A DNA stretch of 64,000 nt, taken from contig JAIETF010000003.1 of NCBI GenBank assembly GCA_019745415.1, positions 1 through 64,000 of the forward strand, given 5' to 3'. Each line of letters begins with the position of its first letter. The first letter of the stretch is position 1. The notes beneath the pieces are model-generated. The model was not told where the DNA came from. It was given only the letters and a program-made list of their open reading frames with translations, and did no database searches. Position numbers and translations under genes: made by a program. The stretch is from Candidatus Obscuribacterales bacterium (GTDB taxonomy: Bacteria > Cyanobacteriota > Vampirovibrionia > Obscuribacterales > Obscuribacteraceae). This document shows, in pieces, positions 43,587 through 60,849 of this stretch.

Positions 43587-44138
43587 TTAAGGCTGGACCG
43601 GCGTCTCGTCGTGAAAGTCGGCGATCAAAAAAGCCTTCGTTTCAGCATGCTGACCGATCAGATAGCGAAAACGAAAGTTAGTCTCCCCGGTGTCTTGCGA
43701 TGAGTGAAGGGCACAAACCCCTTGCACTTCCACCGGAATCATACCGCGATTGTCTGGATCGCCTATGGTCACCTTGTCTACACGCACTGCACAAACTTGC
43801 TTGCGCTCGCTCATATCGCGAATCAGACCGATAAGCTCGCTATTTGTCCCCGGCACTTCTTTGCGCTGGGCCATGTTGGCAAAGAGGTTTGGAGCCAGCT
43901 CCTTACGCAATTCCATAACATTCTTTTCGCAGTTGATATAACTTGTATCGAGCAGATGGTTGGTTACATCTCTAACAAAGGCTTCGATAGTCTGTTTGGT
44001 CTCGCTTGAAACTTTGTTTCCCTTGGGCATGGTCAAAAACAAAAAACCATTGATGATCACGCTCACACCCAAAAGAATGTGCACGCCATAGGCTCTTATC
44101 AATTGTTCCGGACCAATTTTTTGAACTTTCCAATACAT
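43587..44138 (-). CDS. VirB8/TraE-like bitopic membrane protein
   Basis: 183 residues from the ATG at 44138, chosen for GGAGG about 10 bases upstream; it opens just after the stop of the previous gene. One N-terminal helix (about 15-37) is followed by a periplasmic domain. That domain has an opening helix (TIEAFVRDVTNHLLDT), conserved-looking Cys residues and a beta-sheet with IPVEVQGVCAL and NFRFRYLIG, matching the NTF2-like fold of VirB8/TraE, an assembly factor of type IV secretion. The evidence is topology and position next to VirB4-like and VirB3-like genes, not a signature motif. Confidence 0.65.
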   Translation of the reverse strand: MYWKVQKIGPEQLIRAYGVHILLGVSVIINGFLFLTMPKGNKVSSETKQTIEAFVRDVTNHLLDTSYINCEKNVMELRKELAPNLFANMAQRKEVPGTNSELIGLIRDMSERKQVCAVRVDKVTIGDPDNRGMIPVEVQGVCALHSSQDTGETNFRFRYLIGQHAETKAFLIADFHDETPVQP

Positions 44139-44140
44139 GG

Positions 44141-44488
44141 TTAGAGAGCCTCCATTGTGCCCAGCATCCAATTATTATGCGAGCGATACATCTTTAGTAT
44201 AGCTTTGCAATCAGATGTCGACGACTGACCTTGCTTGGTTATCTTCTGAACGCCTTCCACCATAACTTCGGCATCATTATCTTGTGATTTCATCACTTTG
44301 GCCTTAGTGATTTCGCAGCTGCTGCTCACATCGGCGCCATCCCAACTCCAGGTAAACATATCGGCGGCGGCCAACTTGGCCATTTCTTCGAGGCGCGCTT
44401 GATGAACATATTTGAGGGCGAAAAATATACAAACAAAAAGAGCGCAAAAACCAACGAACCACTTGCCCGGTGTGAAAATCTTTTCCAT
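44141..44488 (-). CDS. Small bitopic protein between VirB4- and VirB8-like genes
   Basis: 115 residues from the ATG at 44488; a TTG three bases earlier is possible. One helix near the start (about 11-27) is followed by a short soluble domain with two or three Cys residues and strands AEVMVEGVQKI and WMLGTMEAL. It resembles the C-terminal strands of the VirB8/NTF2-like domain in style and may be a partner or relic of it. Gene spacing of 3 and 20 bases on either side shows it belongs to the operon. No family name can be given. Confidence 0.65.
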   Translation of the reverse strand: MEKIFTPGKWFVGFCALFVCIFFALKYVHQARLEEMAKLAAADMFTWSWDGADVSSSCEITKAKVMKSQDNDAEVMVEGVQKITKQGQSSTSDCKAILKMYRSHNNWMLGTMEAL

Positions 44489-44508
44489 CAAGACCTAGTC
44501 CTCAAGCT

Positions 44509-47409
44509 CTAGCCCTCATGCTGCAGACCGAGATAATAGACGGCTTGACGGCAAGCATCGGTATGCGAAAGCTTGGGATTGCGCCGTCTTACGTCTTCGA
44601 TCATCTGCAAACGCCGCGGAATATCGCGTATCGGTTCGGATGTACAGATCCAGTAGTCCATCGGGCTGGGCACCAATCGAATCGTGCCGTGCACTGCCCC
44701 TACAATCAGCAAACATTGGCTGTCTCTGCGCTTTTCTTCGTCTCGGCTGAACTGCTCAATAGCTGCTGTTTCGGCATCGGTTAGACGCAATGTATCTTTG
44801 AGCATGCGTAAGTCGCTGGGATCTTGTCTGAGCAAAATCTTCATGTGCGAGTTTTTCACGACCGAATCGGCTTGCTCTGCTTGCCTGAAGAAGTCTTTCA
44901 ACTGCTGAGTAATACTGACGAGCATCATACCGTAGTGACGGGCTCGTCTCGAAAGGTCATCGAGCAATCTTGCCCCGGCTTTAAATCTCATCAAAGTGGC
45001 AGCCTCGTCTATGACCGCGGCAAAGCGCTGTCCACGTGCTTTAGAATCGGCAGCCTTACGCCTTATAAATTCAGCCAAGATGAAAACGGCTATACGTTCA
45101 AGACGAGGTTCGTTTACTTCTCTGGTATCAAATACGATGAATAGTTTTTCGGTCTCAATATTGGTAAGACCGTCCACCAGACCGCCAAAAGCGCCAGTTC
45201 TGGTAAAGAGTGAAAGACCTCGGGCAAACTGTTGCAAGCGATCCCTCTGCAAAGGATCAACTTCGTTGGCGGCAGCCTGAGCTGTTACCTGCGCCAAGTC
45301 GGTCATAGTCGGTACTTGGTTGCGGAAACTGGCTTCCATGTAGGCTAGACGGATGAGACCATCAAGCAAAGACTTCTCTTCTACAGAGAGTTCTTCGCGA
45401 CCTTCCGGGGCAAGCATCAAGTCTAGAAGAGAAAGCAGAGTTGAAACTTTGTCGGCGGAAGGCTCACCCATCTTGTCTTCAGGACCAAGATCAAACGGGT
45501 TCAAGACATAGCCGCTGGAAGGACCCAGATCGACATATGCACAAAGTTCGGGACCGAGCAATTCGGTGATAAAACGATAAGCACCGAATTTGTCTACTGT
45601 TTTATCAATGAGCACAAAGCGCGTGCCGAGAGGCAAAAGCCTGAGCATCATCATTGAAACGGCAAAAGATTTACCAGCCCCGGTGGTTCCCACTACGAAC
45701 ATGTTGTTAGCGTCTTTGCCCTGCCCTCTAAAAAATGGATTGAGCAGAACCGGTTCGCGCGAGGCAAGAGCGAAGCCGAAAGGCACACCATCGGGAGTAC
45801 CACAAGAGGCAGTAAAGAACGGCCACATCGTACCGACGATAGGTGACATAACACGATGAACGACGGCCATTTTGTCAACGCCGACAGCCAAGGTAGACTG
45901 CCAGAGGTCAAGCTGCAACATCTGTCCGCGGTCCATTTGAGCACCGCGGTTTTTGAAGACACGCCTGATTTCATCCATATTCTGAGCGAGATGCTCTGGA
46001 CTATCGCTTGCCGTTGAGAGATAGAGCGATACATCAAAAGCCTTGTTGGAACTGCGCAAGAACTCTTGAATAGCTTGAGCAGCCGACCGAGTCGATTCGA
46101 TACCTTCTAAGTCGGGGGTGGCCAACTGTGTGGAAGTAACGTGACCCATGCGGTATTTAAGTTTGAGTTCTTTCCTGACCCGGTCTTGGTCGCATTGATG
46201 AATAAAAAGCGAGAGGGTGTATTCAGTCGAAATAGTAAGCAAGTCGACAAGCCATCCCATCCAAGTTTCATGGGGAGTGGCGAACATATACTGGGTACCG
46301 ATGTATTTACCGTCCAACCAAACATATTCATCGGTGACCTTCATAGCCGAACCAGCTAGGGTTGAAGCTTCCGACATATTTGAGCGCGAAGGCGGCGCTT
46401 CGGGATCTTTTTGATAAAGTGATGGGTTGAGATCAGAATAGATCAAATTGCGCACTTCTTTGCGCGTCAAGACTTGCGGTCTCAAGTTTGATGTGCGTAA
46501 CTGCTCCACAGCCGTCTTCTTGAGACGATTCAATATCTCAAGATACTCTTCGTGCTTCTGAATTGAACGTCTGCCGCTCCAGCTCTTTCCGGTTTTGCAA
46601 TCGGGCGGATGATAACTGATCACTACATAAAAATCGCGTTGCGGCACGAAAGTTACGTCTTGTACCTTACGAAACCATTTGTCGGTATAGTCGGCATACC
46701 ACTTGAGATAGTCGTTGTCGGTCTTGAGCAAGATTTGATAACGCGACAGATATTCATCTACTGAAAGGTTGCGGCTTTTGATGATAATCTGAATGTCAGA
46801 CTCGCAAGAATTAGCAAAGTTGGCAAAAGTACGAGCCATAGTCTCGCGCTCGGCTTCGTCGAAGAGTAGAGCGTTAATGCCTTTACAAGAAATATATTTG
46901 CGAAAACTTCCGTCTGATAAAACAACTAGACCTTCTTCTTCGTCTTCACCCGGAATGGAATGAATAAAGCAAACGTCTTGCCAACTGCTGGCGCCTCTCT
47001 TGTCTGCGGTGGGACCATCATCGGAATGGGTATCGCTTTCTTCTTCGCCGAAGGGAAGCATCTCCCTTAGTTTTTCTGGCAGTCCGTTGTAGAAGCCGGC
47101 AATAATATTTTGGAAAGATGAATGAGGAGTGGTTGGTAACCGTTTACCACTGACAGATGGCGTGGCTAAACCGTAACTCTCATCATCGTCTTCGTCCTCA
47201 AAATCGTCTTCGTCATCTTCATCATAACGACCTCGACCAGGAGGCTTGCCTCTGGAACCACCAGACCCGCCGGAGCCCCCACGACCACCGGAGCCTCTAC
47301 CGCCAGAACTTCTGCCACCAGAACTTCTGCCGCCCGAATTAGAACCAGCAGAAGGACCCCGTCCTCCCGTTCCTCGTAATGCTGAATACTGGCTGTCGCT
47401 TCTTACCAT
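44509..47409 (-). CDS. virB4: VirB4/TraC-family type IV secretion ATPase
   Basis: 966 residues. After a disordered N-terminus with SGGR repeats (about 24-55) and an acidic run (about 62-76), the VirB4 N-terminal domain leads to the RecA-like ATPase. Walker A VGTTGAGKS is near 573-581 and Walker B FAAVIDEA near 795-802, followed by RHYGMMLVSITQQ and the DTLRLTDAE C-terminal segment. VirB4 ATPases power assembly and substrate transfer in every type IV secretion system and are its best marker. No conjugative relaxase or coupling protein is nearby, so the substrate may be protein rather than DNA. Gene symbol is by family only. Confidence 0.92.
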   Translation of the reverse strand: MVRSDSQYSALRGTGGRGPSAGSNSGGRSSGGRSSGGRGSGGRGGSGGSGGSRGKPPGRGRYDEDDEDDFEDEDDDESYGLATPSVSGKRLPTTPHSSFQNIIAGFYNGLPEKLREMLPFGEEESDTHSDDGPTADKRGASSWQDVCFIHSIPGEDEEEGLVVLSDGSFRKYISCKGINALLFDEAERETMARTFANFANSCESDIQIIIKSRNLSVDEYLSRYQILLKTDNDYLKWYADYTDKWFRKVQDVTFVPQRDFYVVISYHPPDCKTGKSWSGRRSIQKHEEYLEILNRLKKTAVEQLRTSNLRPQVLTRKEVRNLIYSDLNPSLYQKDPEAPPSRSNMSEASTLAGSAMKVTDEYVWLDGKYIGTQYMFATPHETWMGWLVDLLTISTEYTLSLFIHQCDQDRVRKELKLKYRMGHVTSTQLATPDLEGIESTRSAAQAIQEFLRSSNKAFDVSLYLSTASDSPEHLAQNMDEIRRVFKNRGAQMDRGQMLQLDLWQSTLAVGVDKMAVVHRVMSPIVGTMWPFFTASCGTPDGVPFGFALASREPVLLNPFFRGQGKDANNMFVVGTTGAGKSFAVSMMMLRLLPLGTRFVLIDKTVDKFGAYRFITELLGPELCAYVDLGPSSGYVLNPFDLGPEDKMGEPSADKVSTLLSLLDLMLAPEGREELSVEEKSLLDGLIRLAYMEASFRNQVPTMTDLAQVTAQAAANEVDPLQRDRLQQFARGLSLFTRTGAFGGLVDGLTNIETEKLFIVFDTREVNEPRLERIAVFILAEFIRRKAADSKARGQRFAAVIDEAATLMRFKAGARLLDDLSRRARHYGMMLVSITQQLKDFFRQAEQADSVVKNSHMKILLRQDPSDLRMLKDTLRLTDAETAAIEQFSRDEEKRRDSQCLLIVGAVHGTIRLVPSPMDYWICTSEPIRDIPRRLQMIEDVRRRNPKLSHTDACRQAVYYLGLQHEG

Positions 47410-47438
47410 AAATTAAGTTTACAACGGAAGAGGGCTAA

Positions 47439-47810
47439 TCACCCACCGATGTAGAAATCATCGCTCTTTTTCTTGGGTTCTTGAATGGTCGGATCTGGAT
47501 AGAGCCTCCCTGGCTCTGGCTTTGGAATAAAACTCGTTGGTACCAGGTGTAACTTGTAAAGGAGCAGATTGCGCCACCAGCTCATGGGTTTGAGGTCGGT
47601 AAACTTGACAGCCGGCAGACAGAAGCAAAAGAAGACAATGGCAAGCAAAATATTGGCAGGCAAGTTGCCGACCTTCCACCCCTGAGGCACCGCCGAGAGA
47701 ATATAGAAAGAAATGGCGATTGAAACAACCAGCATTAAGAGCTGACGGACGGTAAAATCCCACAGCTTAAAAGGCTTGTTCAGTACTATGACTTTATGAA
47801 CCCTGGACAT
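47439..47810 (-). CDS. VirB3/PrgI/TcpE-like membrane protein
   Basis: 123 residues. The basic start RVHKVIVLNKPFKLWDFTVRQ is followed by two closely spaced membrane helices (about 22-43 and 51-70) and a polar tail with Pro-rich and Lys-rich ends. This is the PrgI or TcpE layout, functionally equivalent to VirB3, which docks VirB4 at the membrane. It lies 29 bases before the VirB4 gene, as in most such clusters. Homology rests on position and topology more than residues. Confidence 0.7.
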   Translation of the reverse strand: MSRVHKVIVLNKPFKLWDFTVRQLLMLVVSIAISFYILSAVPQGWKVGNLPANILLAIVFFCFCLPAVKFTDLKPMSWWRNLLLYKLHLVPTSFIPKPEPGRLYPDPTIQEPKKKSDDFYIGG

Positions 47811-47841
47811 ACCGCCCCCCTCTAGCTATATTCCACTTTTT

Positions 47842-48462
47842 TCAACTTTCAAAGGGAATCAGGTCTGACTGCCCATTCTCGGCTAATTTCATCAGCTTTC
47901 TAGCCATGATCGCATAAGACGACGGCAGATGCGAGATCACTCCCGCAAAGTGACTTCGACAAGCATCAAACATTCCAATCCGTCTATAGAGTTCACCAAT
48001 CAAATACTCGACATCTACACGGCTATCAACCGGACAGGAAACATCATAGAGAGCCTTAGAGAGCATCTCAAGGGCAGCCCTCCTATACTCTCTCGCTTGC
48101 GGCACGGCACCGCCATCATCGGCACACCAGGCGGCATAGAGGTAGAAAATACCAGCTTCCCAGAAATTGAAATCTTTTCTTTCCGCCCGCAGGGCTGCCG
48201 CACGATACTGCAAATGTGGAGTAGAACGCGCTTGAAAGAGCGCACAGTCTTCCATCGTGCGTTCATAACTTTGCGCCCAGTCGGCTCTGCCGCAGCTGGG
48301 ACAAGTAGCGATGGCATAAGGTTCATAGCAGGGCGTGACATCATAAACGTGTTGCCGCAGTTCACTGTTTCTCAGCCCAGTGTCGACAAACTCACGCACC
48401 TGCCTGGTCATGAACTTCAGCCCGCAATCAGGGCAGCGCACGGCTATGTTATCTAACTCCAA
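47842..48462 (-). CDS. DUF2225-like zinc-binding protein
   Basis: 206 residues from a TTG at 48462 with AAAGGG about 6 bases upstream. Two zinc-knuckle pairs are visible, CPDCG (about 10-14) and CPSCG (about 54-58), followed by a helical region of TPR style (YLIGELYRRIGMFDACRSHFAG). The pattern fits DUF2225, a family of soluble proteins found in Firmicutes and others with no known function. It sits between the strong terminator at 48508-48550 and the VirB3-like gene, so it may be the first gene of the virB3-virB4-virB8 transcript. Confidence 0.75.
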   Translation of the reverse strand: MELDNIAVRCPDCGLKFMTRQVREFVDTGLRNSELRQHVYDVTPCYEPYAIATCPSCGRADWAQSYERTMEDCALFQARSTPHLQYRAAALRAERKDFNFWEAGIFYLYAAWCADDGGAVPQAREYRRAALEMLSKALYDVSCPVDSRVDVEYLIGELYRRIGMFDACRSHFAGVISHLPSSYAIMARKLMKLAENGQSDLIPFES

Positions 48463-48507
48463 ACGAAAACCCTTTCCAAATCGCTAAGTCATCGGCTAGT
48501 AATTATA

Positions 48508-48550
48508 GAAAAGAGGCGACGAGATAGCTGGTATCAAATCGCCTCTTTTC
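48508..48550. terminator. Perfect 12-bp inverted-repeat terminator
   Basis: GAAAAGAGGCGA pairs exactly with TCGCCTCTTTTC around a 19-base loop, giving A-rich and T-rich flanks on both strands. It works on paper as a terminator for the giant VirB6-like gene, which ends at 48584, and would split the minus-strand block into two transcripts. A TATAAT lies just inside the far side and may serve the DUF2225 gene. Confidence 0.75.
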
Positions 48551-48583
48551 ATATTGTCATCTATCTATTAGCTGGTCTTCTCC

Positions 48584-51500
48584 TCAGACCGTCTCGCTGT
48601 CATCAGGATCATCGGGATTTTTCTTCTTCTTCTTGCCTTTATCTAGGCCGGAATTCTGAGCCCAATTGCGCAGACTGCCCATCTTGCGATTGCTTGCTTG
48701 AGTCATCTGCTCACCCAGACTCTCGCCGGTGCTCTTCTCAGCCGCTCCAGCAGCCTCTCCGGCGGCTTCGGCAGCCTTGGCTTTAGCTGCAGCTTCTTTC
48801 GCCGCAGCCTCTTTCGCCTGCGCATCTTTAGCCATAGCTATATCACGACTGCCTCCAGAGTTTATCGGCTGAGCCGGAGTTCGATTGGCAGCTGGGATAA
48901 TCACCGGCGCTATCATACCGCCATCGTGGTGAGGCATTGACGGTTGTGCTTGTCGTTGCTCGATTGCGCCCTGGTCAGGCGCTCTCCAGGCCTGGGCGCT
49001 GGCTTCGTTTGCCTGCGCCACTCTCCAAGCGTCAGCCCCTTGCACCGGCTGCGCCGGCGCTTGACCCCAACCACTTGCGGCATCGGGAGATGGCGCAGGC
49101 ATTTGGGCTTGGCCACCATGACCCTGGCCTTGGGCAAGATGACCCCAGCCGCTTGCGGCATCAGGAGCTGGTGCGGACATTTGTCCTTGACCACCATGAC
49201 CCTGGCCTTGGGCAAGATGACCCCAGCCGCCTCCACCGCCATCAGCCATACGCATATCGCCGGTAGGCTGCGGGTTTCCGCCACCCTGCGGCTCGATGCG
49301 AACAGGCTGATCGCCCATGTTACCGGCACTTTGAGGGCTGAGAGACTGTGACGAGAAGTCTCTCATCATCTCACCGCCGCCTACTCCGGGCACATAGTTG
49401 GTTCCAGTTACGTAGCCACCACTAGCGGCGTCATAACTACCGGTTGGTGCAGATGCTCCGTAGACCGGCGTCACTGCACCACCGGAACCGATGCCCGAGG
49501 TGTCAGACGAGGCTGACCCACCGCTACCGGCAACGAAACCGGCATTATAGGTAGGAGCGTCGGCAGCGTAAGCGACATTCTGAATTGAACCACCCTGATT
49601 GACGCCACCAGATCCGGTATCAACAGGCGTCGGCGCTCCTCCAGCTACTGTGTACTGCGGGCTGCTGTTATAGCTGTAGCTGACGGGACTGCCATCAGCA
49701 GACATGGCCATGCTGTATGAAGCAGGCGCACCGCCTTGGGCAAGGGACTGACTTTCCATGCGCGCCGTATCGATTACTCTTCCAGCTTCGACGTTGCCGC
49801 CGAGGGCCGCTTGCACGGTCTGCGCCGGCACTCCGGTCATCATCTGGAAGGCACCGGCATTGGTGGTAGGCACGCCACCGACGACAGCGGCTCCGTTAGG
49901 ATCGCTGACAGCGGCAGTGTAATAGCCTGCACCAACCGACTGCACTATTTGAGCAGCTTCACTGCGGGTCTGCGCCGCGTCGATCATGCGACCGGCATCG
50001 ATATTACCGCTCATGGCTTGCTGCACTGTTTCGGCACTGACCCCATACCGCTGCTGGAAGGCTTCACCCGCCGGCATAGTCTGGTTTCCTACCGATATTG
50101 GTGTATTGGGATTATCGAGAGCCGTCTGATAGACAGATCCAGCCGAGGCGGCGATAGACTGTCCATCTATGCGAGCCTGAGCTACATCGATCGCTCTTGC
50201 AGCTTCGATATTGCCGCCGCTTGCAGCCTGAACGGTCTCAGCCGAGACGCCGTAGCGTGCCTGGAAGGCTTCGCCAGCCGGCATCGAGTGATTGCCGACC
50301 ATTACTTGGGCATCCGGCTGGCTGAGAGCAGTCTGATAGAGCGCCCCAGCCGAACTGGCGATGGACTGTCCTTCAAAGCGAGCCTGAGCAACATCTATAG
50401 ACCTTCCGGCTTCAATGTTGCCAGAGGCAGCAGCCTGCACGGTCTCAGCCGAAACCCCATAGCTGCGCTGGAAGGCTTCGGATGCAGGCATAACCTGTCC
50501 ACCCATGCTCACCGGCGCATCAGGCTGACTCAAAGCAGTCTGATAGAGTTGTCCGGCCGAACCGGCTATTGCTTGTCCGTCCATACGGGCTTGGGCGGTG
50601 TCGACCAAGCGTCCAGCTTCGAAGTTCCCTGCCGCTGCCTGCTGCACAGTCTCAGCACTGACTCCATAACTGCGCTGGAAGGCTTCCGAGGCAGGCATAG
50701 TCTGACCACCCATACTGACAGGCGCATCAGGCTGGCTGAGCGCAGTCTGATAGAGCGGTCCTGCCGCTCCAGCTATGGATTGTCCATCCATGCGAGCCTG
50801 AGCAACATCGATGGCTCTGCCCGCGTCGACGCTACCGTTCATAGCCGCCTGCACGGTTTCGGCGCTGACACCGGTGGCTCTGGCGAAGGCTTCACCGGCC
50901 GGCATCGTCTGACCACCATAATTGACCGGTTCGCTCGGTGCAGAGATTGCTCGCTGCATCAAGTCACCGTGAGCAGCAGCAATGGCTCCACCTTCCATGC
51001 GGGCCTGTGCAGAATCAATTGCATAACCAGCCTGCACATTGCCGCCCATCGCCGCCTGAACAACTTCAGCGGTTACACCGTGGCTTCTTTCAAAAGCCTC
51101 GGCATTGGTCATTTGCTGTCCGCCAACCGAAGTTATTCCGTCTGGATTACTGAGAGCCTGACGGTACATTTCTGGATTGGAGCCGGCAATCTGAGCACCT
51201 TCCATTCTCGCCTGACCGGCATTTATGGAATTATGAGCACCCACATCACCGGCCATGGCAGCCTGCACAGATCCGGCGCTGTAGCCGTTAGCCGCTTCGA
51301 AGGCCTGAGCGTTGGTCATCTGCTGACCATTGTAGCTCGTCACTCCGTCTGGATTAGATACAGCATCCCTGAACATTCCAGGATTAGCGCTGGCAATCTG
51401 ATTGCCCTCGATGGCTGCCTCTACAGCTCGACCATACTCTGGAGAGCTGGGATTGACCTGCAGAGAATTTTGCACGGCATCGGCGGACACGCCGTTTGCA

Positions 51501-54079
51501 GCGCGGAAAGCCTCAGCATTGGTCATCTGCTGACCATTGAAGGTGGTCAAGCCTTGAGGATCGCTCACCGCAGCCTGCAGCATGTCGCCGGCCACTTTGG
51601 CGCTGTCCTGAGGATTCATAGTTGAGGAGAACCCTGGAGCGCCGTCCACACCGACTCTACTCAGGTCACCATCTCCAGTGCCTGGCATATTCGGATTACC
51701 GGCAAGAGGCATGCCTCCCGGACCGGTGAGCGGGTTGCCGTCGGCACCAACACCGGTGCCAAGACCGGTGCCTATGCCGGTGTCCAAAGGTCCGCCTGGA
51801 GCGGTCAATCCGTCATTACCTCCTAGCCCGGCTGTGAGACCAAGCGGACTAGCGGTGTTGAAGTCGTTTGCCCCTGTGAAGGCAGTCGGTGTCAGCCCGC
51901 GTGCAGCCTCTCCGGCGAAGACGCCGGCAGCTCCGCCCAGGAAGCTATTGTTGTCGACATTAGCATTGTTGCTGGTGTTGAGATTATCCTGACTGCCGAA
52001 TCTAGCAGTGTGCTCACCTTCAGCATTGAAGCGGCTGGAAACACTAGCATCGGTGTCTTGAGCGACAGTGGTATTGCCCGCCACTGCGTTCAAGCCCGGC
52101 ATCGCGCCGGAGGCACCGGCATCGCCGAGCCCGGCTGCGTCGCCCATAGGTGGCGGACCAGCAAGGTCACCGGCATTAGCATTTCTACCGTCATTTGCCC
52201 CTTTGGAGGCATCACCGGACAGAGGCACCGCCGATACATCAGCAGCCCCACCGTCCATACTGTCGTTGCCACTCTCACCAGTGAGCGGTACTTCAGCAGC
52301 ACTATCGGCAGTACCACTTGGTCCAGCCCCGTCAGAACCACCAGGGCTCACGGTTGCAGCATCTTGCGTGCCACCTAGACCTCGATTCTCTGCCACGCCG
52401 TTACCAGCAGGCGCCACCGGTTGACCGTCGGCAGGAGTAACACCGACACCGGCCGCCGAAGAACCATTGTCAGCAGCAGCAGGAGCGCGGCCTCCGGTGT
52501 TTCCACCCTGGTTGCCGCCTTGCGATGCACCGCCTTGCGATCCACCGCCGCCCTTGCCGCCCCCACCGCCGCCACTGCCTTTCATAGCAGCAGCAGCACC
52601 GGCTTGTGCAGCACTCTGAGCAGCCATGACAGCTTGAGTGACCATACCCGAGAAGTCGAAAGCCGACCTGATCGCGGCAACCGCCATAGCAAGCAGAGAA
52701 GCGACAATAATGGTACCGGTAAAGCCGACACCCTTAAAGCAAGCGAGAAGCAAGATGACAGTGTTCCAGAACAAACTCCAGAAACAAATTGTTATCACGC
52801 CTTCAACCCAGGAACCAAGAGAAGCTTTCATTTTGGCAATCGGCCATACCCATAGAGCAGCGGCAATCGGCCCCATGCACCACAGGTAATAAAGATAGGC
52901 CATCTGGAAAGCACAAGAAAGGTTCCAGCTCAGAGCGGCAGTCATGCCCATACTATTGACCATGGCACGCATGGCGTTCATAACTTGAGGAACGGTTTCA
53001 TCAGGCAAAATACTTTGATAGATGCCCAAACAAGGATCGATTAGGGCAATACCAAGAGTATTGCGCTCAAGTACCGCAAAGACCGAGAAGCCACCGGAAG
53101 CCGCAGGCTGACGAGTTTCGCGCAATGTGTTCAAGTTATCTTGTGGCCTGTTCACAGGGAAAGCTCTCTGAACAGCACATTTTGCATCTTCGTACATGTC
53201 TGAGCCGAAGATGCGCGTGTACTCGGTTGCCACCGTATAAGTGAGCGAGTTAGCCACGTCAATGCCGTAGTTGATAACCAAGAAGCTACCCGGAATGAGG
53301 AAGATAGCCACAATAGACTTGAGCAGACCTTCCAGAGGGTGAGCCTCACCAACCAGCACGGGCGAGCCCTGGGCGATGATGGCACGAACCTGGGCGAGCA
53401 CTGCACCAGGCAAGAGCAAAAGCACAGCCATAGGAATAAATAGATGGTCTCTGATGTCTTGCCAGACGTTGCCGGGCTCAGCAGTGAAGTTAGTAAGAAA
53501 CTGCTTGCAATAATCGATAGCGGAATAGGCCTGGTTGGTCGTCACACCAGCTTCAGAGTTAGCTGTGTTGTTGGCAGCAACACCACCAACGCCGCTGGCA
53601 GCGTGCATGATACGCTCAGGGCTGAAAGCCTTCTCCACCATTTTAGTCATAGCACCGTTGGCTTGAATACCAAATGATGTATCAGTGAGCAAGGCACCAG
53701 TGGTGGTGTAGTTTTCAGTATCTTGATGGGAATAGTTTGCCGGAGCGTTCGAGGTCCAGACAGGCATTGGAGGAACAAGAGAATACGGTCCACTCCTGTT
53801 TGTGATCGTAGTAGGACCACCGGCATCTCTGCCGTTGCCCTTTAGTTCAGTCTCTCTTTGAGCGTGTTTGTTCCTGTCGTCGTAATTTTTTCTGACGGCT
53901 GGCGCACCTTCCACGTTCTGCTCCGAGGCTGAGTTACCCCCGCCCTGCGCCGGCTGCTGGGCAAAAGCCGCACCCACAGTAAAGAAAAGAGAGAAAGCAA
54001 CCATGACTAGCAGCGAGCTAAGGTCTTGCTTCTTATGAACTGCCTTTCGCATTTCTATTTGCCTCATCGAGTTACGCAT
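48584..54079 (-). CDS. Giant VirB6/TrbL-like membrane protein with nine 69-residue repeats
   Basis: 1831 residues from the ATG at 54079, which overlaps the previous stop and has AGAGG 9 bases upstream; an ATG at 54052 is nearly as good. The open frame reaches 54577 but that part is the shadow of the upstream gene. A signal segment ends near AAFAQQ. About residues 160-470 hold several membrane helices with LFIPMAVLLLLPGAVLAQ and NYGIDVANSL, as in TrbL/VirB6 channel proteins. A Gly/Asn/Ala-rich region follows, then nine repeats (about 830-1447), then a Gly/Gln-rich and Ala/Lys-rich tail ending in a Lys run. It is paralogous to its upstream neighbour. VirB6 lines the inner-membrane pore; the repeats may form an exported or surface filament. 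The repeat function is unknown. Confidence 0.72.
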   Translation of the reverse strand: MRNSMRQIEMRKAVHKKQDLSSLLVMVAFSLFFTVGAAFAQQPAQGGGNSASEQNVEGAPAVRKNYDDRNKHAQRETELKGNGRDAGGPTTITNRSGPYSLVPPMPVWTSNAPANYSHQDTENYTTTGALLTDTSFGIQANGAMTKMVEKAFSPERIMHAASGVGGVAANNTANSEAGVTTNQAYSAIDYCKQFLTNFTAEPGNVWQDIRDHLFIPMAVLLLLPGAVLAQVRAIIAQGSPVLVGEAHPLEGLLKSIVAIFLIPGSFLVINYGIDVANSLTYTVATEYTRIFGSDMYEDAKCAVQRAFPVNRPQDNLNTLRETRQPAASGGFSVFAVLERNTLGIALIDPCLGIYQSILPDETVPQVMNAMRAMVNSMGMTAALSWNLSCAFQMAYLYYLWCMGPIAAALWVWPIAKMKASLGSWVEGVITICFWSLFWNTVILLLACFKGVGFTGTIIVASLLAMAVAAIRSAFDFSGMVTQAVMAAQSAAQAGAAAAMKGSGGGGGGKGGGGSQGGASQGGNQGGNTGGRAPAAADNGSSAAGVGVTPADGQPVAPAGNGVAENRGLGGTQDAATVSPGGSDGAGPSGTADSAAEVPLTGESGNDSMDGGAADVSAVPLSGDASKGANDGRNANAGDLAGPPPMGDAAGLGDAGASGAMPGLNAVAGNTTVAQDTDASVSSRFNAEGEHTARFGSQDNLNTSNNANVDNNSFLGGAAGVFAGEAARGLTPTAFTGANDFNTASPLGLTAGLGGNDGLTAPGGPLDTGIGTGLGTGVGADGNPLTGPGGMPLAGNPNMPGTGDGDLSRVGVDGAPGFSSTMNPQDSAKVAGDMLQAAVSDPQGLTTFNGQQMTNAEAFRAANGVSADAVQNSLQVNPSSPEYGRAVEAAIEGNQIASANPGMFRDAVSNPDGVTSYNGQQMTNAQAFEAANGYSAGSVQAAMAGDVGAHNSINAGQARMEGAQIAGSNPEMYRQALSNPDGITSVGGQQMTNAEAFERSHGVTAEVVQAAMGGNVQAGYAIDSAQARMEGGAIAAAHGDLMQRAISAPSEPVNYGGQTMPAGEAFARATGVSAETVQAAMNGSVDAGRAIDVAQARMDGQSIAGAAGPLYQTALSQPDAPVSMGGQTMPASEAFQRSYGVSAETVQQAAAGNFEAGRLVDTAQARMDGQAIAGSAGQLYQTALSQPDAPVSMGGQVMPASEAFQRSYGVSAETVQAAASGNIEAGRSIDVAQARFEGQSIASSAGALYQTALSQPDAQVMVGNHSMPAGEAFQARYGVSAETVQAASGGNIEAARAIDVAQARIDGQSIAASAGSVYQTALDNPNTPISVGNQTMPAGEAFQQRYGVSAETVQQAMSGNIDAGRMIDAAQTRSEAAQIVQSVGAGYYTAAVSDPNGAAVVGGVPTTNAGAFQMMTGVPAQTVQAALGGNVEAGRVIDTARMESQSLAQGGAPASYSMAMSADGSPVSYSYNSSPQYTVAGGAPTPVDTGSGGVNQGGSIQNVAYAADAPTYNAGFVAGSGGSASSDTSGIGSGGAVTPVYGASAPTGSYDAASGGYVTGTNYVPGVGGGEMMRDFSSQSLSPQSAGNMGDQPVRIEPQGGGNPQPTGDMRMADGGGGGWGHLAQGQGHGGQGQMSAPAPDAASGWGHLAQGQGHGGQAQMPAPSPDAASGWGQAPAQPVQGADAWRVAQANEASAQAWRAPDQGAIEQRQAQPSMPHHDGGMIAPVIIPAANRTPAQPINSGGSRDIAMAKDAQAKEAAAKEAAAKAKAAEAAGEAAGAAEKSTGESLGEQMTQASNRKMGSLRNWAQNSGLDKGKKKKKNPDDPDDSETV
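49739..51589 (-). repeat. Nine tandem copies of a 207-bp coding repeat
   Basis: Protein repeats of about 69 residues share the core GGQxMPAxEAF, GVSAETVQ, AGRxIDxAQARMDGQxIA. Copies 4-8 are the most alike; copies 1-3 use MTNAEAF in place of MPAxEAF; copy 9 is the most worn. The DNA repeats are not identical, so the array is old and under coding selection. A long open frame on the plus strand over the same bases is a by-product of the repeat composition. Confidence 0.9.
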
Positions 54080-56630
54080 CTTTCTTATCCTCTTTCGAGC
54101 CGCCGGACTTACCCTGCATGTCGGTGACAGTCTTATCGCCTGCCAGGTCAGCGGTGCGAGTTGCACTGGCGCTGGCACCCACCTGACCACTTGAAGCATC
54201 GACTGTGACGCTCTGAGGGGAAGAGTCGGACTTACCGGCTTCTCCATTCTTGCCGCCCGGTGCGGCGTTCTGATTGCCGCCAGCCTGTGGAGGCGGTGAA
54301 TCGGAACCACTTCCAGCGCCCGGTCCTGACGAACCCTTATCAGGTTGTCCGCCGGCGCCAGCAGCATTAGCCAAGGGCACATCTGCTGAACTCTTGTCTT
54401 TGGCAGCGCCGCTGTTAGGACTGAGTGGCACAGGCATTTTGCCTTGATCGCCTTTTCCTGCCTGTCCTCCGGCATTCTGCCCTGGTGGTAGGCTGCCTGC
54501 ACCGGAGGCGTTGGCGTTGGCTCCGCCGCCGCCCGCCTCACCAGGCGGCTTCCCGGTGTTAGGACCGGCGTTGTCACCTTGCTGATCGCCGCTCACCTTC
54601 GGAGGCGCTACTTCAACGCGTCCATCTTTCTTGCCCTCTGACCCGGCATTACCGGTTATGTTCAAGCCACGGGTAACTGGAGCCTCATTGGGATTACCTT
54701 CGGCACTATCGTTACCTTGTCTACCTTGGACATTGGTAGAGTTTCTAGACTCGGCTTCGTCGCCACCCTCTTCACTCTTACCTGCTCCTCGGCTGCCGCC
54801 GGGTGCAGCGCCTTGGCCGCCGCCCTGGCCGCCGCCGCCTCCGCCACCGCCTCCGGCAGCCTGCCTGCCTTGTTGCATGCCGGCGCTGTACTGTCTGTCA
54901 GCAGCAGTGAATGCGCCGTTGGGGTCGAACACGAAGGGCTCGGTCGGAACATAAAGAAGCAAACCAAGGAAACTGGCGAAAATACAAACTTCCCACTGCA
55001 AGTCGGACGTACCACCACCGGTGTAGATGAGACGCTGAGTCATGACGGCAAGAATTACCATCCAGAAGAACCGCCATAGCGAAACTTTGATCACGGCTTC
55101 TACCCAGTTGCCGAAAACACCGCGAAAGAGTCTTTGACCGGTGGCAGGCCAGGCATAGAAAGCGGCAGCTAGAGGTCCCATCAAGAACAGATAACAGATT
55201 AGGGTAATCTGCAGAGCCGACATGATCACAAGGAACAGCGCTGCCACCCAAACCATGTAGTTGAAGGCGAACTGCAAAATAATCGATATGAAGCCTTGCC
55301 GCTCCATGTGAACAGTGCCTTCCCTCATATTCATGAAGATACCTTCACCTGGCGCGAACCAGCCGCCCAAAGCAGCATCGAGAAGACCGCCCAGATAGGC
55401 ACCTATGCTGCCCAAGAAGGACCCGCCCAAGGCAGCAAACGTGCCACCGCCGCTGCCACCGGAAGAAGCACCGCCACCGCCGGCACCACCACCACTGTAG
55501 TTAGGATTGGCATTAGGAGGCAGAATTGTGTTGTCGTAGTTGCCCGGTTTAGGGTCATATGAAAGTTCACGACACCAATTGACGATCATAGGAATATCAA
55601 CCCAGTCTCGCATTGAATAAGCCATCGAATTGCCAACGTCTATCGACCAGCTGACAATCACCTGGGTACCGGGAATGAGGAAGACCGCCACTATGGCGCG
55701 CATTATGCCGTCAAAGGGGTTCATAGCCTCAGGGGCATTGACCACCGAACCAAGGCCGCGAGCAGCAATACCTTTCACCTGGCTGATCACAGCGCCAGGC
55801 AATAGAAAGAGAATAGCCATCGGAATATAAACATGCTTATACATTTGCATAACCATGCCGACAGCGTCAGGAATTGTGCGAAAGAGAGCGCCGACATTAC
55901 CGCCGGTACCGGAAGCCTCGTTAGCTACGTTGATAAGAGCACCAGAGCCATCAGCTTCGACAATGCGTTCGAACAGTGTGTTGAGCGAATTCTCACCGCC
56001 ATAGGCCGAACTATTCGACGCACCAGCCGTGGCGAGACCAGCAGCACCGGCAACGTTCCAATGCAGTCTTTCAGGGTCAAGAGAACGCTCTAAGCCCCTG
56101 GTAAGGGCCTGGTTGAGTAGAATACCAGCACTGGTGTCAGTAATCGGGAAGCCGGGCGTAGCGTAAACATCCTGCAAATCACCAAGGTTCTTAGGCGATA
56201 TCTGTGTGGTGCCTGCGGTCTCTTCCATATGCAAAAGCCAGTTCCTACCAGAACTGTCGACCGGTGTGCCGGTGGTCATAAACTGTCGCATGGGCGCAGT
56301 TATTGGCTCGGCCTCGATATAGTTTTCAGTGCCGGGTCGTTTCTGCATACTGGCTCTATCACGTTCCCAGTCCTTCTGCGCCCAACGGTTGCGCTCAAGA
56401 TATCTCTCGCGGTTGGCATAGCTGTCTTGACCGGTGGGCGTGTCTGGACCAGCGCCAGCGTTGTGATTAACCTGTACGGCCTGCGCCAGAGCAGCGCTGT
56501 GAATAGCACCGCCGACGATTGCAAAAGCAGCAAGTCCGATAGCCAGCATAGAAATATGACTGGCTCGAGCACTAAGCCTAGACTCGGTCCTTTCAAAAGA
56601 TTTCAATATATTTGCAATCATCTTCTTCAT
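54072..56630 (-). CDS. VirB6/TrbL-like membrane protein (paralogue of the giant)
   Basis: 852 residues. A signal-like helix (about 25-48) is followed by a short exported stretch. The polytopic core (about 245-590) includes VYIPMAILFLLPGAVISQVKG and SWSIDVGNSMAYSM, matching the core of the next protein at the same spots. The last 260 residues are a disordered Gly/Ala/Ser/Asn tail without clear repeats. It is probably a pore-forming VirB6-like subunit of the same apparatus. Its end overlaps the start of the giant gene. Two tandem VirB6-like genes recall the multiple VirB6 genes of Rickettsiales, where they have large extra domains. Confidence 0.7.
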   Translation of the reverse strand: MKKMIANILKSFERTESRLSARASHISMLAIGLAAFAIVGGAIHSAALAQAVQVNHNAGAGPDTPTGQDSYANRERYLERNRWAQKDWERDRASMQKRPGTENYIEAEPITAPMRQFMTTGTPVDSSGRNWLLHMEETAGTTQISPKNLGDLQDVYATPGFPITDTSAGILLNQALTRGLERSLDPERLHWNVAGAAGLATAGASNSSAYGGENSLNTLFERIVEADGSGALINVANEASGTGGNVGALFRTIPDAVGMVMQMYKHVYIPMAILFLLPGAVISQVKGIAARGLGSVVNAPEAMNPFDGIMRAIVAVFLIPGTQVIVSWSIDVGNSMAYSMRDWVDIPMIVNWCRELSYDPKPGNYDNTILPPNANPNYSGGGAGGGGASSGGSGGGTFAALGGSFLGSIGAYLGGLLDAALGGWFAPGEGIFMNMREGTVHMERQGFISIILQFAFNYMVWVAALFLVIMSALQITLICYLFLMGPLAAAFYAWPATGQRLFRGVFGNWVEAVIKVSLWRFFWMVILAVMTQRLIYTGGGTSDLQWEVCIFASFLGLLLYVPTEPFVFDPNGAFTAADRQYSAGMQQGRQAAGGGGGGGGGQGGGQGAAPGGSRGAGKSEEGGDEAESRNSTNVQGRQGNDSAEGNPNEAPVTRGLNITGNAGSEGKKDGRVEVAPPKVSGDQQGDNAGPNTGKPPGEAGGGGANANASGAGSLPPGQNAGGQAGKGDQGKMPVPLSPNSGAAKDKSSADVPLANAAGAGGQPDKGSSGPGAGSGSDSPPPQAGGNQNAAPGGKNGEAGKSDSSPQSVTVDASSGQVGASASATRTADLAGDKTVTDMQGKSGGSKEDKKDA

Positions 56631-56684
56631 CGTATTTCTCTATTGCGCTGTAAAGACACTTAGTAAGGTTTCAAGAAAAACTAT

Positions 56685-58706
56685 TCATCGCCGCAATGGC
56701 ACATTCCGGCTTCCGTCCGTCAGTGAAACCGAAAGACGATCGTTCCAGGGTCGACCAAAAATTGTAATTGTGCCCTTAACCTCCTGATTAGGCTGCACCA
56801 AGGTTGTTTCAAAATCTGCGCGCAAAGCAGCTTCTGCCAATTTGCGATTGTTCTCTGAGACCGAAAAAGCCTCGGGATCAAAACTAAAGTCGTTATCACT
56901 GTTGTTCTTTATGGATACAGTCAAAATCGACTTGCGGGCTGTCACATTCACACCCTTCAATTCCATTGAAATGCCGGGAGCGCTTGCCGCTGCAGACTTA
57001 GGTTCGGGCTCGGACTGAGCAGGGGGAGCAGACTTCAGGTCCGACTCAGAAGAGGAAGATGCCGAAGAAGGAGCTTTGCCGCCTTTCTTGTCTTCCTTCT
57101 TATTTGCCGCTTTTCCTGCGGGGACGGCTGCCACTTTCGCTGCCTTTTCCTTAGGAGCTTCCGCTTTACCGAAACCAAAAAGCGAACCAAAACCGAAACC
57201 ACCTTTATCGGGTTGCGGCGCCGGTTCCGGCTCAGAAACAGCTAGTGACTCAGCAGACGGCGATATGCCGGAGACCTTACCAATAATGGACCGCGCAGCC
57301 GATACACCGGCAGTGGAAGCCAGTTCCATCTGTGCCGCTTTCAAATCTTCTTTAGCCGAATCAGCCTCGTTCTGAGACTGAGCCACATCGGCAGCCGCTC
57401 TTTGTTTCTCAGAGTCGGAACCAGCCACTTCCACCTCTTGCCTGCGAGCGGCCAAAGTTTGCTGAGCCAAAGCAAATTTGTGATAGGCATAAAGATAACG
57501 ATAATACGACTGCACCAAGTCGGTTTGCATGCGACGCACAGTAGAATATGCCTTCTTGTCCATGGCCACCGGTTTGAAGATGGCATCAACCTGACGAGGG
57601 TTGACATTGAAACTACCCCTGGTGGCATCGCCCGGCAAACCGACATCGATACGAGAGAGAGTCTCGGCTAGTTTGGCGTCACGCACTGCATCTTTAATTG
57701 CACCACCGTTTAGAGCCCCTTTCCAGAGAATCTTCAAATCATCACGCTGTTGGTAAGGAGATCTGGCGTCCATGCCTTTAGGAATAATCGGAACGAAGGT
57801 GGACTTCTTCTTCTCCGGCTCATCTTCCGACTGCCTACGTTGTCCACCGGCGCCGCTATTGCCGGCACCACCGCCTCCAAAAAGTCCAGCCGGTCGCTCG
57901 GGCTGTTGCGGCGCCATCTGCGGCGGATAGCCCCCGGGATAGGGATTACCGTAAGGATTTAGATATGGGTTGGCGTATGGGTTGGCATAGGGATTTGCAT
58001 AAGGATTGGCGTAAGGATTGGCATAGGGATTTGCTTGTGCATCGCCGTTATAGGCCACATTCGCCTGGGTGGAAAGTGTCACTGCCGGCGGTGGCGGAGT
58101 GAGAGCACCGCCGCTGACCAGCGAACCGGGAGGCGGGGGCGGCACGACTCCGGCATTGCCGAAAGCACTTTGATAGGAATTACCGTAGGAAGCCATTTCC
58201 ACTGGTTTAGCTTCAGCAGCCGGCTTGCCGTCGACCGGAAAAGCACCGGCATTAGCATCAGCAGTAGAGCCGGCATTATTGGTCACACCGGCGGGCAGTC
58301 CAGTGACAGAGCCTTGAGCCTGATTGAAACCGAAACCGGAAAAATTACCGGAAGAAGCAGTGGCGTTCTGACCAGAGATTGGATCGCGTGAAACCTTAGG
58401 GAGTAAGCGACCGAGTCCGTCAAAACTGAAGCCACCAAATCCGCCGCGCTGACCTTGTCCCTGACCTTGTCCCTGCGCCTGGGCTTGCGCCCGCAGAGCC
58501 GCTTGCTCTTGGTCAGCCTGTTCTTCTTGTTGAGCCATCTCGACAAACTTAGGATCAACTCGCGGACGGAGACGACCGAGAGCGCCCCCGCCAGAAGGAA
58601 CCATAGCTTGGCTGTCGTTCTTACCCAAGCCACCGCCAATTCCACCGCAGCCGCTCAGGACTGTGGTGGAAGCGATTAGGACAAGGATAACGAGAACGTA
58701 ATTCAT
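56685..58706 (-). CDS. Repeat-bearing lipoprotein in the secretion cluster
   Basis: 673 residues. The signal peptide ends in LSGC (Cys about residue 20), a lipobox. The region 220-260 holds eight NPYx tetrapeptides. A predicted coiled-coil follows (about 390-460, SYYRYLYAYHKFALAQQTLAARR style), resembling outer-membrane-factor helices. The last 100 residues form a beta domain (ISMELKGVNVTARKSILTVS, shown in part) of FxLYD/VirB9-like style. It may be the outer-membrane or periplasmic part of the machine, in the role of VirB7 or VirB9, but no family motif proves this. Confidence 0.65.
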   Translation of the reverse strand: MNYVLVILVLIASTTVLSGCGGIGGGLGKNDSQAMVPSGGGALGRLRPRVDPKFVEMAQQEEQADQEQAALRAQAQAQGQGQGQGQRGGFGGFSFDGLGRLLPKVSRDPISGQNATASSGNFSGFGFNQAQGSVTGLPAGVTNNAGSTADANAGAFPVDGKPAAEAKPVEMASYGNSYQSAFGNAGVVPPPPPGSLVSGGALTPPPPAVTLSTQANVAYNGDAQANPYANPYANPYANPYANPYANPYLNPYGNPYPGGYPPQMAPQQPERPAGLFGGGGAGNSGAGGQRRQSEDEPEKKKSTFVPIIPKGMDARSPYQQRDDLKILWKGALNGGAIKDAVRDAKLAETLSRIDVGLPGDATRGSFNVNPRQVDAIFKPVAMDKKAYSTVRRMQTDLVQSYYRYLYAYHKFALAQQTLAARRQEVEVAGSDSEKQRAAADVAQSQNEADSAKEDLKAAQMELASTAGVSAARSIIGKVSGISPSAESLAVSEPEPAPQPDKGGFGFGSLFGFGKAEAPKEKAAKVAAVPAGKAANKKEDKKGGKAPSSASSSSESDLKSAPPAQSEPEPKSAAASAPGISMELKGVNVTARKSILTVSIKNNSDNDFSFDPEAFSVSENNRKLAEAALRADFETTLVQPNQEVKGTITIFGRPWNDRLSVSLTDGSRNVPLRR
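57936..58031 (-). repeat. Eight tandem 12-bp units encoding NPYx
   Basis: The 96 bases encode NPYA five times, then NPYL, NPYG and NPYP. Synonymous changes occur between units (CCC/CCT/CCA, TAT/TAC), so the repeat is kept at protein level. It forms a flexible Pro/Tyr linker in the lipoprotein at 56685-58706. Confidence 0.9.
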
Positions 58707-58726
58707 ATTTTGAAACTTCAGTCTCC

Positions 58727-59359
58727 TTACTTACCGAGCAACTTGGCTCTAACTGCCGTTGACGAACTGGAGCCGCCGCCGCCGTAATAGCCACCACCGC
58801 CGGAGCCTCCATAACTGGAACCATAACTAGCGGGAGTAGCAGCAGCGCGCATTCCCGATGCCGGTTTACCCAAACCGACAGGGCGGGCGGCTGTATTGGT
58901 CTTAGCCTGTTGCTGCTGAGCATACTGATTACCGAGTCCGCCCATCTTGACTCCCGGTAGAGCCGTGGCTGGTCCCATGCCTCTAGCCGGTATATTCGAA
59001 CCGAAACCAGCCTGGGGCAGGTTAGGGGTCTGGATGCGCGGTGTTACAGGACCGGAACCAGTATTGAAGGGCAGACCGCCTTCGGGAATGCGACCGCCAT
59101 TGTTACCATTGGGAGCGAGTGGAATGTTGTAACCCTGATCGTTGGCTGGAGCAGTGCGGTAATCTTTGATTACCGGACCATCATCCAAGATCTGTACTTG
59201 CAACGGCGATTTGTGCCAACCAGCCTGCTGCAGCTGATTTTTCTTAATATTGATAGAACCGGCATTCTGAGCCGATGCTTCCCCTTGAGAAAATACCGCC
59301 AGGCCGAGAACAGCTCCCAGCACTGTTAGATATTTCGATTTTAGAAAATTCGGATTCAT
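58727..59359 (-). CDS. Exported Gly/Ser-rich protein of unknown function
   Basis: 210 residues with a signal peptide ending near ASAQ-NAG. A short conserved-looking block (YNIPLAPNG, residues about 73-81) shares style with VNIPLASPG in the next protein. The rest is Pro/Gly/Ala linker with a Gly/Tyr-rich stretch (about 178-200). GAGG stands before the ATG. It lies between lipoprotein and Gly-rich neighbours in the secretion cluster and may be a small structural component. Confidence 0.65.
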   Translation of the reverse strand: MNPNFLKSKYLTVLGAVLGLAVFSQGEASAQNAGSINIKKNQLQQAGWHKSPLQVQILDDGPVIKDYRTAPANDQGYNIPLAPNGNNGGRIPEGGLPFNTGSGPVTPRIQTPNLPQAGFGSNIPARGMGPATALPGVKMGGLGNQYAQQQQAKTNTAARPVGLGKPASGMRAAATPASYGSSYGGSGGGGYYGGGGSSSSTAVRAKLLGK

Positions 59360-59442
59360 AAAATTGTCCTCTTAAATCCCTGCCAACTCCAATTATTGAT
59401 TGTAAAAATCTTTCGCCAGTTCTGCTTGCTTAATCCTGTTTT

Positions 59443-60354
59443 TTAGCGCCCTCCGGGGAATCTAATTGGCAAAGGCATGGAATTGATGCTGTTGATCATG
59501 CGGTTACCAACTCTGCCGACAGTGCGCTGCAAAATGCGACTGCCCTGACTGTTGGAGCGCTTCTTATTGCTTGAGGAACTATTCATTTCATCGTCAGGCA
59601 GAGAAAGGTCTTGCGAAGTAGATTGATTGACCTGCACAGCCTGAGGCGCTTCCGGCGCAGCCTGATAGCCTTTGTCATCAAGACCGGGTTCTTTGCCCAT
59701 GCGCTTCAATGCATTCTGAGCTGCGCTTGCCTGCGGGGACGGAGCGGTACCGGCAAAAACGTCGCCGGGAGAAGAGCTGTTATTGCCGCGTCCATACGGA
59801 GTCTCGCGCTTAACGAAGGCACCGGGTGGAACCGATGTGTAACCCTGAGAGGTGCTCACCTTGCCGCCACCAGCCGGCGCCCCCATGCCGCCCACCGACA
59901 CTGAACCGGAGCCGCCATAGGTGGACGAGAAACTACCGCCGCCTCCACCGCCACCGCCTCCGGCTATGCGAATCATGCCGCCGCCTTTCAAGCCGGGCAG
60001 ATCAAGCTGTTCAGGCATAGGAGGGAAGCCGGTGGGCGCCACAGGCTCTTCGCAGACGATAGGGAGGAGCGAAATGTCGGCACGCCTGGGCTTGGGCGTA
60101 GGACGCCAGCCCGGACTAGCTAGGGGAATGTTGACCGGAGCCGCTTGCTGAACAGGAGCCGGTGCACCGTGACGGGACTGCTGGGTTTCATTGGAATATT
60201 GGTTATCGCCGGGCTGATGCACCCACTTGCCCATATTGACCGGCGGCAACTGCGCCAGCGCCGGTTCGGCACAATCAATATATGACAGCAGGATCCCAGA
60301 GGCAATCAGGGCCGACAGAACTACTCTTGATATGTTTGTTTGAGCTTGTATCAC
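59443..60354 (-). CDS. Exported Gly-rich protein heading the secretion block
   Basis: 303 residues from a GTG at 60354, chosen for the GGAGGG site 7 bases upstream; an ATG at 60414 is the longer option. A signal peptide ends near ALAQ. The mature part is Pro/Gly/Ser-rich with a nine-Gly run (GGGGGGGGG, about 130-138) and the block VNIPLASPGW, similar in style to the preceding small protein. The C-terminus is Arg-rich (RILQRTVGRVGNRM). No family is recognised. It is probably the first gene of the minus-strand 43-60 kb block. Confidence 0.6.
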   Translation of the reverse strand: MIQAQTNISRVVLSALIASGILLSYIDCAEPALAQLPPVNMGKWVHQPGDNQYSNETQQSRHGAPAPVQQAAPVNIPLASPGWRPTPKPRRADISLLPIVCEEPVAPTGFPPMPEQLDLPGLKGGGMIRIAGGGGGGGGGSFSSTYGGSGSVSVGGMGAPAGGGKVSTSQGYTSVPPGAFVKRETPYGRGNNSSSPGDVFAGTAPSPQASAAQNALKRMGKEPGLDDKGYQAAPEAPQAVQVNQSTSQDLSLPDDEMNSSSSNKKRSNSQGSRILQRTVGRVGNRMINSINSMPLPIRFPGGR

Positions 60355-60849
60355 GCTATATCCCTCCACGGGACGGTTGAAACCACGGCCGGTTTCTAGC
60401 AATTTCATGCCCATTTTTAGTAAGTAGAGAACGCCAAAATGGTGAATTTATGGGCTTGACAACTAGATAATGCGATCTTTTATGCGCCTGATTAAGACCC
60501 CTCGAAAAATATGCACGGAAACCCCAGATAGCAAGCGGAGTCCCTCATTTGTAAGCCTTTCCCCGCCCCTTGTCAATAAGAAATTACAGTCTTGCAGGAG
60601 CAAGTGTTGGCTAGATAACATTTTTGCGAAATGGGGAGATTCCCATTTCGGCGCAAATTTATCTGCAATTAATTCGAAACTCATTACTTCGACAAAATTC
60701 AGCAGATTAATTCTGGTGATTGCAAGCTTGCCGGCAAAATAGCCAGCAAAATTTTCGAACAAGACTACAATAAACCGTAACCTGAAGCGTATTCTGGGTA
60801 GGAAATGCAGCAAGGCATGTTTAGTAATTAGGCTGTAAGTAGAAGGCAA
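60355..60849. other. 495-base gap between divergent gene blocks
   Basis: No gene is supported here. Promoters for the secretion block (minus) and the TPR genes (plus) should lie in it; a TTGACA at 60454 has no matching -10 at proper spacing. The clearest structure is the hairpin at 60623-60657. Confidence 0.5.
60623..60657. other. Long hairpin in the intergenic gap
   Basis: TTTGCG-AAATGGG pairs with CCCATTT-CGG-CGCAAA, 13 bp with a three-base bulge (CGG) and a six-base loop. There is no T-run on either strand, so it is not a usual terminator. It could be a regulatory RNA hairpin, a small RNA, or a binding site. Confidence 0.4.

Follow-up and report, generated by a model that had tools for sequence, protein, structure and literature searches.

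A VirD4-less type IV secretion operon, vertically inherited in the Obscuribacterales, with a putative role in protein export or surface assembly

Type IV secretion systems (T4SSs) that lack the VirD4 coupling protein are known to export proteins in two steps, as has been argued for Bordetella Ptl, or to form adhesive structures, as has been argued for Bartonella Trw (PMC12857230). Both of these, as well as Brucella VirB and Helicobacter ComB, combine VirB3, VirB4, VirB6 and VirB8 in the absence of VirD4 and relaxase while keeping VirB9/VirB10-type outer-membrane proteins, and Bartonella pairs a VirD4-less with a VirD4-bearing system (PMC12857230). The monoderm-type MPF_FATA systems, which include the Patescibacteria T4SS, have a CD1110-type VirB4, PrgI and VirB6- and VirB8-like proteins, no VirB9 or VirB10, and a coupling protein often encoded away from virB4 (PMC12102498). 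The Rickettsia rvh T4SS has scattered genes, an extra VirB4 and an expanded set of strongly diverged VirB6 proteins with variable extensions (PMC2653234). Within the same class of non-photosynthetic cyanobacteria as the organism studied here, the T4SS of Vampirovibrio chlorellavorus has been proposed to serve predation (PMC4451040). For the Obscuribacterales, no account of a T4SS turned up in the open-access library that we searched; the original prediction made for the present locus had called the lineage poorly studied for secretion, in agreement with the near-absence of secretion papers.

The DNA analysed here (the window) spans 64,000 nucleotides of contig C8 in a draft genome (5.7 Mb) of Candidatus Obscuribacter, and the VirB4 encoded on it shares 98% identity with its counterpart in Candidatus Obscuribacter phosphatis. 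Ten tightly packed genes on the minus strand (43587-60414), rather than the eleven first counted, form an operon, locus A, with the transcription order g1, g2, g3, g4, g5, g6, g7, g8, g9, g10 (60414 to 43587). We read locus A as the core operon of a VirD4-less, chromosomal, vertically inherited T4SS that would serve protein export or surface assembly, and we give this reading, whose functional part we infer from the gene content, a probability of roughly 0.6. By its VirB4 and VirB8, locus A belongs to the T4SS superfamily; with neither VirD4 nor a relaxase (PF03432) accompanying its transfer genes, it falls outside the definition of a conjugation system. It appears to work most like the VirD4-less systems of diderms and to be built more like the monoderm type.

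Judged by its sequence, g8 (44509..47409, minus strand; 966 residues) is beyond doubt a VirB4 ATPase. The Walker A (GTTGAGKS, residue 574) and Walker B (AAVIDE, about residue 796) motifs are intact, and both are kept in 44/44 full-length orthologues. The protein matches the Pfam TraG P-loop (8.7e-19) and TraC_F_IV (2.1e-11) families, its best NCBIfam match is the CD1110-type VirB4 (1.1e-59, under that profile's cut-off) and, among PDB sequences, only the VirB4 4ag5 is matched (5e-13). Scores against FtsK (just 26.8 bits) and HerA/DUF87 (21 bits) are low, so that the VirB4 profiles win over the HerA/FtsK branch, as expected of the clear VirB4 originally predicted. The gene directly upstream of virB4, g7 (47439..47810, minus strand), encodes a protein with two membrane helices whose own match to PrgI is weak (E 0.015, under the curated cut-off). 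PrgI is matched by 11 of 22 g7 orthologues (best 5e-4), and g7 aligns with its equivalent in locus B, a sister locus of the same genome described below (hhalign 4e-6); both results bear out the VirB3/PrgI-like assignment proposed earlier. A PrgI gene directly upstream of virB4 is also found on Enterococcus and Brevibacillus plasmids.

This pairing of a CD1110-type VirB4 with PrgI, the VirB6- and VirB8-like proteins and the lack of VirB9/10 are features shared with MPF_FATA. In contrast to these systems, locus A resides in a diderm host, encodes a VirB4 that is only about 22% identical to theirs, and has two VirB6-like giants, a DUF2225 protein, a lipoprotein and exported Gly-rich proteins, and no peptidoglycan hydrolase gene. 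Our VirB4 tree is a quick version in which the deep branches, including those that bear on the FATA clade, are long and weakly supported, and in which long-branch joins may be false.

The last gene of the operon, g10 (43587..44138, minus strand; likely start 44138), encodes 183 residues with one helix and a periplasmic domain, a topology that had suggested VirB8. The AlphaFold model (pLDDT 85) predicts a membrane helix followed by helices and a four-stranded sheet, and Foldseek retrieved DotI and CagV as best matches, closely followed by TraM, TrwG and Brucella VirB8. By this predicted fold, g10 is a VirB8. Its profile returned ubiquitin-type matches only among PDB sequences, which we dismissed as chance, and it matches the VirB8-like protein of locus B weakly (62% probability). 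The adjoining g9 (44141..44488, minus strand) encodes a small, conserved protein with one membrane helix (alignment A9); it has no match to the VirB8-like protein of locus B and is possibly a second VirB8/NTF2-like piece.

Two polytopic giants, g4 (54072..56630; 852 residues) and g5 (48584..54079; 1831 residues), are encoded on the minus strand, with the g5 ATG overlapping the g4 stop codon, and are paralogous (hhalign 1.4e-80). Neither has a direct match to the Pfam VirB6/TrbL families. The polytopic protein of locus B is homologous to g4 (1.8e-13 by BLAST, 1.2e-7 by profile), and one of its orthologues matches Pfam TrbL_4 (9.6e-6); because direct comparison of g5 with the locus B VirB6 is weak (15%), the link from g5 to locus B runs via g4. 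This chain of homology, from g5 through g4 and locus B to TrbL_4, supports a VirB6-like identity for both giants. It agrees with the VirB6/TrbL-like assignment of the original prediction. The fold search of g4 (AlphaFold pLDDT 63) gave no significant Foldseek match, R388 VirB6 chains being among the weak ones. In the g5 protein, a variable, fast-evolving Ala/Gly-rich tail with 69-residue repeats is joined to a conserved membrane core that is about 480 residues long. A GntR match in g5 falls within the repeat region and is not believed.

Between g5 and g7, the 206-residue g6 product (47842..48462, minus strand) combines a zinc ribbon with a TPR-like part and matches Pfam DUF2225 (5.6e-13). A gene of the same type (2e-10 against g6) also lies between VirB6 and PrgI in locus B (L089:10644-11315). 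None of the three open-access papers found to mention DUF2225 is about secretion by its title.

The first three genes of the operon, all on the minus strand, specify exported proteins, in agreement with the lipoprotein and exported Gly-rich proteins noted earlier. The g1 product (59443..60414; 323 residues) is Gly/Pro-rich with a conserved TQDLSLPDDE-type motif, and that of g2 (58727..59359; 210 residues) is Gly-rich with a conserved C-terminal LLRK/LLGK-like end; orthologues of both occur in the same 15 upstream stretches, and neither belongs to a Pfam or NCBIfam family. The lipoprotein g3 (56685..58706; 673 residues) has an LSGC lipobox whose cysteine 20 is invariant (alignment A6), a Pro/Tyr-rich part, a probable coiled-coil, a C-terminal Ig-like stretch and a weak DUF4352-like C-terminus, and has no relative in the PDB by sequence. 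Upstream of g1, a divergent gene (60850..62655, plus strand) encodes a 601-residue TPR protein that is probably exported, as its N-terminal sequence resembles a signal peptide. It adjoins the operon in 17 orthologous loci, its orthologues being 38-97% identical, and we therefore count it with the system; of the riboflavin and TPR genes first described as flanking the operon, the riboflavin genes downstream of g10 are neighbours, whereas the TPR gene belongs to the conserved block.

The presence of Omp85 in the genome indicates that the cell has an outer membrane. VirB9 (PF03524) and VirB10 (PF03743), not recognised at the locus beforehand, are absent genome-wide, and both were detected in the control genomes. 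This absence distinguishes the organism from those with Ptl, Brucella VirB, Trw and ComB. We infer that VirB9 and VirB10 have either diverged beyond recognition or been replaced by lineage-specific proteins. Candidates for such a replacement are the lipoprotein, the TPR protein and the conserved exported proteins; the exported proteins could also be substrates instead of envelope parts. Pfam and NCBIfam searches of the ten operon proteins returned no VirB1-like peptidoglycan hydrolase domain, as anticipated. In relatives, the interval from g10 to riboflavin synthase contains unrelated genes, which vary from group to group and include no common effector or cargo. We identified neither a substrate nor a pilin nor an outer-membrane pore in locus A, and g4 and g5 have no direct profile match and no significant fold match to VirB6; both points count against our main reading.

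When 84,980 species genomes were searched by pattern, 49 loci of this type emerged, most of them from records named Obscuribacterales, Obscuribacter or Melainabacteria and the others including probably misnamed bins. The locus A VirB4 is present in 38 of 39 sampled Obscuribacterales genomes; the other orders of the class gave just two weak, distant VirB4 matches, and in an even draw of 292 genomes from the phylum the organism's own genome alone matched at 1e-20 (0/291 others). Beyond the Obscuribacterales we found no locus A orthologues, whereas the Vampirovibrio T4SS is T-type by VirB4 tree, partly plasmid-borne and accompanied by relaxases (PMC4451040). Gene order is kept across dozens of genomes, which argues that the arrangement is not due to chance, and g1, g2 and g3 are found in nearly all upstream stretches fetched. 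Locus A is vertically inherited.

VirD4 is missing from all 49 orthologous loci, the operon proteins include no relaxase by Pfam and NCBIfam, and no relaxase (PF03432) occurs on the window contig. These absences, both foreseen in the original prediction, and the order-wide conservation support its view of a chromosomal, non-conjugative locus. The sole tRNA of the window, at 2210, is far from the operon. Contigs C58, C71 and C79 of the same genome carry TraG/VirD4 and relaxase domains and are probably separate mobilisable or conjugative elements. Their presence, and the conjugation ancestry of the locus A parts, could be taken to mean that locus A is itself a decayed or dormant conjugative element. 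We consider this very improbable: the neighbours are fixed (the TPR gene adjoins 17 of the loci and riboflavin synthase lies close by on the downstream side), the reading frames are intact across the order, the A-locus copies of g5 fall into one clade, and the PF03432 matches are all on other contigs.

The same genome contains locus B (contig C15, 2922-20055; L089), which encodes, in order, four exported proteins, a small hydrophobic protein that is a possible VirB2-like pilin, a VirB6-like giant, a DUF2225-like protein, a PrgI-like protein, VirB4, a VirB8-like protein and VirD4. The latter matches T4SS-DNA_transf (2.9e-18) and has C-terminal zinc-ribbon-like CxxC motifs. The two loci correspond in position and sequence, through VirB4 (7.9e-92) and through the VirB6, DUF2225 and PrgI matches given above (1.8e-13, 2e-10 and 4e-6). 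Hence the lack of a coupling protein proposed at the outset is true of locus A and not of the cell, as a VirD4 is encoded elsewhere in this and almost all of the same genomes. Locus B was found in 36 of 39 genomes of the order (one a fragment), 35 of which also have locus A, and its type of VirD4 in 27 of 30 genomes and, in a further search, in 11 of 14 (one just an end fragment). This co-occurrence, and the frequent encoding of coupling proteins away from virB4 in other systems (PMC12102498), would fit a locus A that shares the VirD4 of locus B and acts as an ordinary VirB/D4-type exporter. We regard such sharing as rather unlikely, since the VirD4 gene accompanies the virB4 of locus B itself, within that locus, and is never near locus A, and since the two VirB4 proteins are about 28-31% identical and form separate clades. 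Genome G028 (91% complete) moreover has locus A and no B-type VirB4 or VirD4, although draft gaps could explain this.

Searching relatives with the g5 profile uncovered further VirB6-like pairs. Among the 18 stretches with matches that we examined, pairs lie away from virB4 in ten related genomes (L129-L136, L138-L146), and G014 holds such orphan pairs at at least seven sites; the Obscuribacter genome has none. The only other T4SS genes recognised in these stretches belong to a partial A operon in G016 (L137). In the g5 tree, 31 of 32 A-locus copies group in a single supported clade, apart from the orphans, which occupy deep separate clades; some orphans from different genera have the same neighbours, which indicates that the pairs are old. 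Ten tails of g5-like proteins encoded in orphan pairs, searched against Pfam, gave no credible catalytic domain. We found no description of stand-alone VirB6 pairs devoid of other T4SS genes in the open-access library searched. Rickettsia rvh offers a precedent for the VirB6 expansion, but keeps VirB7-11 and VirD4 and has five VirB6 copies (PMC2653234), whereas here whole VirB6 pairs stand alone at many sites.

In two A loci (L023 and L016), no pair separates g3 from the g6/g7 genes, and in the genome of L023 (G007) the only VirB6 pairs found lie on another contig. On this basis we tentatively suggest, as a minority view, that VirB6 pairs are exchangeable channel modules, whereby a single locus A VirB4-VirB8 engine might serve several scattered two-gene cassettes with variable tails setting specificity. 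Such cassettes would resemble the VgrG islands of type VI secretion. In G022, a 1142-residue protein encoded directly downstream of three tandem g5-like genes (L134:14469-17894) is a candidate substrate or partner. Some relatives also have lone VirB4-like genes of about 640-880 residues (L162, L163, L164, L165, L166, L167); those of 640-720 residues were suspected to be conjugative, an idea rejected as they have no T4SS neighbours.

In the mechanism that we propose for a VirD4-less T4SS at locus A, the PrgI/VirB3-like g7 would tether the VirB4 ATPase (g8) to the inner membrane, and g8 would power a channel made of the VirB6-like g4 and g5 and of VirB8 (g10, perhaps with g9). As no VirB7, VirB9 or VirB10 was recognised, g3, g1, g2 and the divergent TPR protein may carry the path through the periplasm and the outer membrane. 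Because the operon has no coupling protein or relaxase, locus A would take proteins from the periplasm after Sec export, or build a surface structure, rather than send DNA; effector delivery and surface display, both initially proposed, are plausible by analogy with known VirD4-less systems. Locus B, which keeps VirD4, would probably carry out classical one-step export. The lack of VirD4 in locus A would also fit a competence machine that takes up DNA in the manner of Helicobacter ComB, a T4SS that has no VirD4 either and works with ComEC (PMC12857230), and ComEC is present here for DNA passage across the inner membrane. That role seems doubtful, as ComB has the VirB9/10 proteins absent here, no competence gene lies in or beside the operon, and secretins are present, so that DNA may already be taken up by way of a type IV pilus.

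Protein export or surface assembly remaining our preferred role for locus A, a diderm lineage apparently operates a pair of inherited T4SSs that share gene order and lack a VirB9/VirB10 complex, one of them VirD4-bearing. Loci A and B are a natural pair with which to ask what VirD4 adds and what locus A exports, and the search for new T4SS components has concrete candidates in g1, g2, g3, the DUF2225 protein and the TPR protein. These findings bear on how a T4SS crosses the outer membrane with other parts, and the VirB6 cassettes offer a testable case of modular channels.
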